NCBI GenBank assembly: GCA_028345295.1
Contig: JAOMDA010000002.1
Span: 1 to 64,000 of the forward strand
Source of the DNA: Candidatus Nitrosopelagicus sp.
GTDB lineage: Archaea > Thermoproteota > Nitrososphaeria > Nitrososphaerales > Nitrosopumilaceae
Direction: 5' to 3'
Length of the DNA: 64,000 nt
In this document: positions 58,273 through 60,675 of the stretch, piece after piece
Numbering within the stretch: the stretch's first letter is position 1
How the letters are laid out: each line of letters opens with the position of its first letter
The notes under the pieces: generated by a model
Told to the model about the DNA's origin: nothing
The model's input: the letters and a program-made list of their open reading frames with translations, nothing else
Databases searched by the model: none
Made by a program: the position numbers and the translations under genes

Positions 58273-58584
58273 ATGGCTTCAGTGATTATCATCTCAACAT
58301 TTCCAGATAAAAAATCAATCACAAATATTGCAAATCAATTAGTAAAGAGAAAATTTGTAGCATGTGTGAATATTACCAAGATCTCATCAATTTATTCATG
58401 GAAAGGAAAGATTGAAAATCAGTCAGAATATCTAGGAATTTTCAAAACTACTAGAAAAAATTTGAAAATTCTAAAAAAAGAATTACAAAGACTTCATCCT
58501 TATGATGTCCCGGAAATTGCTGAGATTAATCCTAGCTCAATAAACAAACCATATTTGAAATGGTTAACTGAAGCTACAGTTTAA
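58273..58584 (+). CDS. cutA: Divalent-cation tolerance protein CutA
   Basis: 'NQLVKRKFVACVNITKISSIYSWKGKIENQSEYLGIFKTT', 'LHPYDVPEIAEI'. Confidence 0.96.
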   Translation: MASVIIISTFPDKKSITNIANQLVKRKFVACVNITKISSIYSWKGKIENQSEYLGIFKTTRKNLKILKKELQRLHPYDVPEIAEINPSSINKPYLKWLTEATV

Positions 58585-59633
58585 CCAGTTACTGGAAATC
58601 TCAGTAGAGATATTATTCCACCCAAGCCAGAGACACGCAGGCCTACATCAGTTGTACTGTCAACACTGAAAATTTTACCACCTTTTGCCTCAACATCATT
58701 TAGAAAGTCCACCACCATTTGTTCATCAAAGTCTTGAATGACTTTCTCAGAGAATACCAATGATTCTATAGCACCAAACTCGTTTGCTTTTCGTGTTTCT
58801 TCTAATCCCATCGAAAATTTCTTACTTGTTTTGTTAGCTAGAAACATCACTTGATCTATAATCTCAGATACTTTACCGAGCTTACTATCCGACATTATTT
58901 CCTTCATGCTTTCTGATTTAGTAAAAATATGAATTCCATCCTCACCACCAGAATCAACACCTTCAATTACCTTGATCTGAATTTTTTGTCCTAAACTAGT
59001 TTTAGAAAGAAAATTTCCAAACTTTTTTCGTGTTTCTCCAGGTCCAAAAATCAATAAAATGTCATCTTTTTGAATAATTGTTGATAATGCTTTAGTTACA
59101 TCATCAAAGAATTTTTCTATTTTGAAATTACTTTTGTATCTTTTTCCACTTGAACCAGAATACATGTTTGGTAAAAGATGTAGATGTGTTCCTTTGAGTC
59201 TACCTATACCACAATCTCCTGTGTCTATAGCAACCAAAAGAAATGTCTCACCATGATCTTTTGCTCTAGCAAGTTTTCTTTCAACAGAAGACCATTTCTT
59301 CTTTTCAAGATTGAATGGTTGTTCGATCTTTATAATAAATGAGTGATGTGAACCATGTGGTACTGCATCATTATTTGATTCTGTGATTATTCCTCCTACA
59401 CGAATTCTGTCTAATACATCATCCAAAGATATTTTTTCAACTTCAATTGCCAGTCTAATTTTTATTCTCTCACCTTTATCTGGCCGTGAATATTCTTTTT
59501 CTTGTTTTATAACACGTGTTGTTTCTCCAATAATCTTATTCCCCTTTTTGATTAATCTGCGAATTGTCAGTAAATCATCTGAATCTTCAGCAATAAATGA
59601 GATTGTATTATCGTCAAGCGTTTTGGTAATCAT
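58581..59633 (-). CDS. pelA: Pelota (aPelota / Dom34) mRNA surveillance protein
   Basis: 'DDLLTIRRLIKKGNKIIGETTRVIK', 'LLVAIDTGDCGIGRLKGTHLHLL', 'IFGPGETRKKF', 'LLRFPV'. Confidence 0.93.
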   Translation of the reverse strand: MITKTLDDNTISFIAEDSDDLLTIRRLIKKGNKIIGETTRVIKQEKEYSRPDKGERIKIRLAIEVEKISLDDVLDRIRVGGIITESNNDAVPHGSHHSFIIKIEQPFNLEKKKWSSVERKLARAKDHGETFLLVAIDTGDCGIGRLKGTHLHLLPNMYSGSSGKRYKSNFKIEKFFDDVTKALSTIIQKDDILLIFGPGETRKKFGNFLSKTSLGQKIQIKVIEGVDSGGEDGIHIFTKSESMKEIMSDSKLGKVSEIIDQVMFLANKTSKKFSMGLEETRKANEFGAIESLVFSEKVIQDFDEQMVVDFLNDVEAKGGKIFSVDSTTDVGLRVSGLGGIISLLRFPVTG

Positions 59634-59671: not shown

Positions 59672-60082
59672 TTATTCTGAGCCAGTCTGTTGTTCTTCTG
59701 CTTTCTTTTTTAGATAGTTTTCAACCCAATCCAAAGTAATAACACCACCCTCCGCGAGATTAACTAAGGAATTTGATGATGCTTCTCCTTTTACCTTACC
59801 GGTATTTCGTCTAATCTGACGCCATTTCAAACTAGTATTTCCACTTTTTGAGGAATAGATAATTCCTAATACATCTCTAGCATTAACAAAAGTGATCTCT
59901 CTAATTTTTTTTAGAGTTACTTTGTCTGCTGCCTCAACATAAATCGAACCTTTATCTTCATCACGTTCAGGAAAAACTTCAGGATCTTCAAGATAACTCC
60001 GTGGAGCAAAAGAACTACAAGTGCTTGCTATCACAAACCGTCTGAAATTTTCCACTGTTGAGGGCGCATCAATTGTTACCAT
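59672..60082 (-). CDS. Hypothetical protein (136 aa)
   Basis: Intact ORF, no recognised motif. Confidence 0.6.
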   Translation of the reverse strand: MVTIDAPSTVENFRRFVIASTCSSFAPRSYLEDPEVFPERDEDKGSIYVEAADKVTLKKIREITFVNARDVLGIIYSSKSGNTSLKWRQIRRNTGKVKGEASSNSLVNLAEGGVITLDWVENYLKKKAEEQQTGSE

Positions 60083-60156
60083 TTCTAATCCATGTAATTT
60101 TCTTACTTATCAAGCTTCGTGAAAGATTCAAGTAAGTATAATTCATATTTTATAAT

Positions 60157-60217
60157 GCAGGCAATGATGCAAAATATCCTTTGATTTGATGATAGGGATC
60201 TTGAGTTCTGAGCCTGC
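60157..60217 (+). ncRNA. Candidate C/D-box sRNA (2'-O-methylation guide)
   Basis: GCAGGC(stem) A-ATGATGC(C) AAAATATCCT TTGA(D') T TTGATGA(C') TAGGGATCTTGAGTT CTGA(D) GCCTGC(stem): 6-bp terminal stem GCAGGC/GCCTGC, boxes in canonical order, 61 nt. Confidence 0.72.
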
Positions 60218-60255
60218 ACTCTAGATTTTTATGATTAGAGTTACAAACAATACTA

Positions 60256-60675
60256 ATGAAATCATTAACAAAGTATCTATCTTTTAAAACAAAATCTAAA
60301 AAAGAATTTGTTAACATAACTTCAGATATAGAAAAATTAGTTCAAGAAAGTGGTGTTAAGAACGGTTTGTGTCTAGTCAATGCAATGCACATTACTGCTA
60401 GTGTATTCATTAATGATAATGAGTCGGGGTTACACAAAGATTATGATAAATGGCTTGAGAACTTGGCACCTCATTCACCAATTGAGCAGTATCAACATAA
60501 TAACACTGGTGAAGATAATGCTGATGCACATCTTAAACGTCAAGTAATGGGACGAGAAGTTGTTGTTGCAATTACAAATTATGAATTAGATTTTGGACCA
60601 TGGGAAGCCATATTTTACGGAGAGTTTGATGGTCAGAGAACTAAAAGAGTTTTAGTAAAAATCATTGGCGAATAA
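60256..60675 (+). CDS. YjbQ / UPF0047-family protein
   Basis: '[37 protein letters not shown]', '[52 protein letters not shown]'. Confidence 0.94.

Follow-up and report, generated by a model that had tools for sequence, protein, structure and literature searches.

A probable box C/D guide sRNA gene upstream of yjbQ in Candidatus Nitrosopelagicus with a conserved guide to the wobble cytidine of tRNA-Leu(CAA)

An intergenic element with box C/D architecture

The window analyzed here is a 64,000-nt stretch (positions 1 to 64,000 of contig JAOMDA010000002.1) of a Candidatus Nitrosopelagicus genome assembly that comprises 1.07 Mb in 24 contigs and is about 92% complete. Close to its end, two ORFs are separated by a gap of 173 nt. 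The ORF on the minus strand (59672-60082) encodes a protein of 136 amino acids with no Pfam or NCBIfam match that is conserved in Nitrososphaeria and whose homologues in relatives were located by tblastn, while the ORF on the plus strand (60256-60675) is yjbQ (UPF0047/TIGR00149). The part of the gap that adjoins the 136-amino acid ORF holds a block, ATCAAGCTTNNTGAAAGAYTCAA (60083-60135), that is conserved in the family and looks like the TATA/BRE region of this divergent ORF, placed at the distance expected of a leaderless transcript. The same ORF is also a steady neighbour of a pelota-like gene (58581-59633).

Between this block and yjbQ lies the 61-nt element that a preliminary description of the window had proposed to be a C/D box guide sRNA, bounded by GCAGGC (60157-60162) and GCCTGC (60212-60217) and with the sequence given there. 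The perfect 6-bp terminal stem of that description is present but proved to be one pair longer, TGCAGGC (60156-60162) pairing with GCCTGCA (60212-60218), so that the whole sRNA as defined by sequence, relatives and stem covariation spans 60156-60218 on the plus strand. The stem does not quite abut the C box as had been stated, because a single unpaired A (60163) stands between the two. The C box, ATGATGC (60164-60170), departs from the consensus RTGATGA at one position, as described, and its TGA is invariant across the alignment; it is followed by the D' spacer AAAATATCCT (60171-60180) and by the D' box TTGA (60181-60184), where nearly all relatives in the family have NTGA. The D box CTGA (60208-60211), recognized from the sequence and the alignment, likewise lies where it had been placed. 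The C' box had to be moved. It had been read as TTGATGA at 60186-60192, a register that varies among homologues, while RTGA is found in 56 of 56 aligned homologues 3 nt downstream, in ATGATAG (60189-60195), leaving 4 nt between D' and C'. Because C' is placed here, the interval between C' and D shrinks from the 15 nt first given to the 12 nt of GGATCTTGAGTT (60196-60207), the usual archaeal length.

A descriptor combining the stem, the four boxes and their spacing matched the two strands of the window once, at the sRNA site, and matched none of 150 Markov-simulated 64-kb sequences, which bears out the original judgement that such an arrangement is unlikely by chance. The minimum-energy fold contains an internal hairpin between the D' spacer and the D guide. 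This pairing could compete with target binding; it was dropped as a conserved feature, since only 65% of cells in the alignment are paired. The element thus has C and D boxes closed by a stem, an internal D'/C' motif and, as described below, a guide with a target at D+5, as archaeal C/D sRNAs do.

Conservation of the element and its neighbourhood

A 131-nt region around the element was matched in 56 of 101 relatives at E<=0.001. These relatives share the D guide, the boxes and the D spacing of 12 nt, and every retained homologue keeps the motif GATYTTGAGT. In the terminal stem, 97.5% of cells are paired and two-sided changes occur at five of the six pairs scored, with 20 double-change cells observed versus 3.3 in shuffles; the resulting covariation score was reached by none of 500 shuffles. 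The compensated variants comprise GCAGGC/GCCTGC, GCAGAC/GTCTGC, GTAGGC/GCCTAC, ACGGGC/GCCCGT and GCGAGC/GCTCGC. At one locus (L164, in genome G034) a long (TA)n run splits the D' half of the sRNA, and the D half with its tRNA guide is intact.

As GCAGGC/GCCTGC forms an inverted repeat, and as yjbQ follows the element at a distance of 38 nt in the window and is close to it in many relatives, the element could instead be a cis-acting leader or promoter element of that gene, either an operator palindrome or a riboswitch-like stem, whose resemblance to a C/D sRNA would be secondary. The comparison with relatives makes this extremely unlikely. In 14 genomes or more, the element is present with no yjbQ detected beside it (for example at loci L004, L013, L016, L025, L028, L029, L161 and L164), so that its position in the gap upstream of yjbQ, correctly reported for the window, is frequent but does not hold throughout the relatives. 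The steady neighbour of the sRNA in Nitrososphaeria, and in several other families too, is the 136-amino acid ORF, also where yjbQ is missing, and it is this together with the persistence of the element without yjbQ that argues against a cis-acting role. Moreover, conservation tracks the C/D boxes and the 12-nt guide, which is the exact antisense of a tRNA segment, and the same guide occurs in unrelated contexts in other families and classes.

The D guide and its predicted target, tRNA-Leu(CAA)

The preliminary description had called for a comparison of the guide intervals with the rRNAs and tRNAs of the organism. For the D guide this revealed a single outstanding match, to nt 30-41 of tRNA-Leu(CAA), encoded on contig C24 of the window's genome with an intron after nt 37. 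Positions 2-12 of the guide form Watson-Crick pairs with tRNA nt 31-41 and position 1 forms a G.U pair, which places the fifth nucleotide upstream of the D box (G60203) opposite C34, the wobble base. When every rRNA and tRNA in the genome was scored, the guide reached 11.5 (11 Watson-Crick pairs and one G.U) for tRNA-Leu(CAA) versus 8.5 for the next best site. Among 200,000 shuffled guides, 352 had an 11/11 match anywhere in the stable RNA (8.2 kb), a count that did not require D+5 to fall on a wobble C. No good rRNA site was found for the D guide; the best site in 23S rRNA, at 8.5, was rejected as a target against 11.5 for the tRNA, and so was a genomic 13-mer, AACTCAAGATTCC at C1:1485, which lies outside any tRNA.

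The guide was then compared with the tRNA-Leu(CAA) of each of 35 genomes, and all 35 showed unbroken pairing at positions 2-11. These positions are entirely Watson-Crick in 34 genomes, with a G.U pair at position 8 in the remaining one; position 12 is paired in 31 of the 35, and position 1 is a G.U pair or unpaired. The target sequence is identical in all 35 tRNAs, and compensatory change between guide and target therefore could not be scored; the sequence evidence for this predicted pair is conservation on both sides, with an invariant target. An order-level relative whose tRNA-Leu(CAA) is intronless (L203) retains the guide, and a genome outside the window's class (G155) has the same guide for its own intronless tRNA-Leu(CAA).

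Spliced tRNA-Leu(CAA) offers the guide a complete pairing site. As the introns of these genes (L142 and L174-L208) mostly start with ATC or ATT, echoing the start of exon 2 (ATCC), pairing across the 5' splice site is also possible in most unspliced precursors, over 10-12 nt, and spliced and unspliced tRNA are thus both possible substrates. The likely cause of the echo is the bulge-helix-bulge splice motif. Since the introns repeat the start of exon 2, ARAGORN misplaces intron ends, and the longer introns that it gave in several cases were discarded as boundary errors, given that resetting exon 2 by anticodon-stem pairing yields the same 12-nt target everywhere. The anticodon-stem rule returned no intron for L179, whose intron repeats ATCCTT.

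The genome of the window also encodes proteins of the C/D RNP. Genes for fibrillarin (C5:2826-3479; E 8e-89) and Nop5 (C5:3637-4302; E 4e-68) were found adjacent to one another on contig C5, and it is on these two that the evidence for the RNP proteins stands. Taken together, the boxes, their spacing, the covarying stem, conservation, the D+5 target and the fibrillarin and Nop5 genes support the C/D guide sRNA identity proposed at the outset, and two of the properties on which that proposal had been made to depend, complementarity of at least 9 bp to an rRNA or tRNA and conservation of the boxes in relatives, are present. Judging from sequence comparison, the element is thus very probably a gene for a box C/D guide sRNA that would direct 2'-O-methylation of C34 in tRNA-Leu(CAA). 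The locus is presumably transcribed, and the sRNA is predicted to contain two folded motifs, a terminal kink-turn formed by C/D and the 7-bp stem and, internally, C'/D', and to assemble with L7Ae, Nop5 and fibrillarin. Pairing of the 12-nt D guide with nt 30-41 of the anticodon arm would then position fibrillarin to methylate the wobble cytidine, and the resulting Cm34 would be expected to promote decoding of UUG and to limit misreading by C34.

The mismatch in the C box and the A/T-rich D' spacer might suggest that the copy in the window's genome is a decayed or unexpressed remnant of such a gene. We consider this very unlikely, as nothing is lost from the stem, the D box, the guide or the box spacing, pairing of the guide with the tRNA of its own genome extends over 12 nt, and the close relatives G020, which has the same C box, and G029 retain all parts.

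The D' guide, related systems and distribution

The preliminary description had presented the element as a dual-guide sRNA, and only the D guide can be demonstrated to be a guide. The best rRNA or tRNA match of the D' spacer AAAATATCCT in the window's genome is 8 bp long and is not conserved, and no consistent rRNA or tRNA site for the D' guide was found in that genome (G000), in G059 or in relatives. Candidate D' targets, including 23S 624, tRNA-His, tRNA-Ser(CGA) and tRNA-Ala, were rejected as none is conserved. The case for a dual guide, with D' also directed to the tRNA-Ser(CGA) precursor or to 23S rRNA, comes from elsewhere: the D' guide of one Nitrosopelagicus subclade, ACGCTATCCT, is complementary at 10/10 positions to the pre-tRNA-Ser(CGA) of its own genome, at the 3' end of the intron and the anticodon stem, the best match of the D' guide in the distant genome G155 is pre-tRNA-Ser(CGA) at the equivalent place (10 bp with wobble pairs), and many relatives have a CCCT-like core in the D' spacer. 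Against it, only six contiguous pairs form at the tRNA-Ser(CGA) site in the window's genome, the D' guide of most relatives misfits although that site is unchanged, and rRNA offers no site that is consistently matched. A targetless second guide also has precedent, as the tRNA-directed sRNAs of Pyrobaculum have one guide on a tRNA and the other without a target (PMC7994747). A functional second guide is therefore unlikely, and in the window's genome D' is probably an orphan. At the ACGCTATCCT loci (L017, L021, L147, L154 and kin), D'+5 falls on the last base of the intron, with the boundary as set here.

Methylation of the wobble nucleotide of tRNA is achieved by several routes. Bacterial TrmL and eukaryotic FTSJ1/Trm7 account for Nm34 in tRNA, at the same or the equivalent position as the sRNA described here would, but they are protein-only enzymes without a guide RNA. 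Like the present sRNA, sR50 is a C/D guide for methylation of a wobble C (Cm34, with Um39, in pre-tRNA-Trp), but it is encoded within the intron of the tRNA that it modifies, whereas the present sRNA has an intergenic gene to itself and one of its guides is probably an orphan. The sR49 / Haloferax sRNA that directs Cm34 in elongator tRNA-Met (PMC2584109) is, like the present one, a free-standing C/D sRNA that addresses C34 of an intron-containing tRNA, and in both cases pairing can involve intron nucleotides. It differs in targeting another tRNA; the present guide finds its full complement in the spliced tRNA and can pair with most precursors too. Closest in target are sRNAs of three Pyrococcus species for which the tRNA-Leu(CAA) wobble base is the predicted site (PMC7994747, citing Clouet d'Orval et al. 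2001). Compared by description, these are box C/D, trans-acting and directed to the same nucleotide, C34, of the same tRNA, but their phylum differs from that of the window's archaeon. In P. furiosus, C34 of tRNA-Leu(CAA) is a predicted site (snoRNAdb prediction cited by Wolff et al., PMC7668247); of the predicted sites, Cm34, Am38 and m22Gm26 were seen in that study only in some tRNAs, and no mention of Cm34 in tRNA-Leu(CAA) itself was found there.

No Rfam family, the archaeal sR families and snoPyro_CD included, matched the element at its gathering score, the best scores being 28.1 for snoZ196 (threshold 55) and 18.4 for sR20 (threshold 44), and searches of the open-licence literature returned nothing on C/D sRNAs in ammonia-oxidising archaea. 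Guides for the wobble base of tRNA-Leu(CAA) are already known in archaea, and the present locus adds a new member whose target is precise and whose conservation is unusually deep. Most C/D guides mapped so far come from hyperthermophiles. The present locus makes the specific prediction that tRNA-Leu(CAA) carries Cm34 in mesophilic, streamlined marine ammonia-oxidising archaea that are among the most abundant cells in the ocean.

The signature formed by the D guide and D box, GATYTTGAGTNCTGA, was present in 120 genomes out of a phylum-wide set of 399, versus nine hits for the reversed pattern. When 24 further loci were inspected, RTGA stood exactly at the C' position in 19, most of which also had a C-box match upstream. 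A near-invariant guide across the phylum that is kept in genomes of roughly 1 Mb suggests strong selection on wobble methylation of tRNA-Leu(CAA) in archaea. In one family (f8), most of whose genomes measure 2.7-3.4 Mb, a single sampled member has the exact pattern, and it is missing from many other lineages, where the absence of an exact pattern covers loss and a changed guide alike. We would tentatively entertain, while leaning somewhat against it, a single orthologous sRNA family descended from an ancestor of much of Thermoproteota, in which the 12-nt tRNA-Leu(CAA) wobble guide stayed nearly fixed while D' drifted or acquired targets particular to a lineage, pre-tRNA-Ser(CGA) in the one Nitrosopelagicus subclade being an example. 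If so, this would be an unusually old tRNA-methylation guide, retained in mesophiles.

Five hits lacked C/D boxes and were set aside as chance matches (L168, which is the second hit in G036, and the pattern hits L210, L212, L216 and L233). An extra GATYTTGAGTNCTGA match at G042:C4:192147-192161 also lacks boxes and is probably coding. Three extra GATYTTGAGTNCTGA matches were observed in genome G393.
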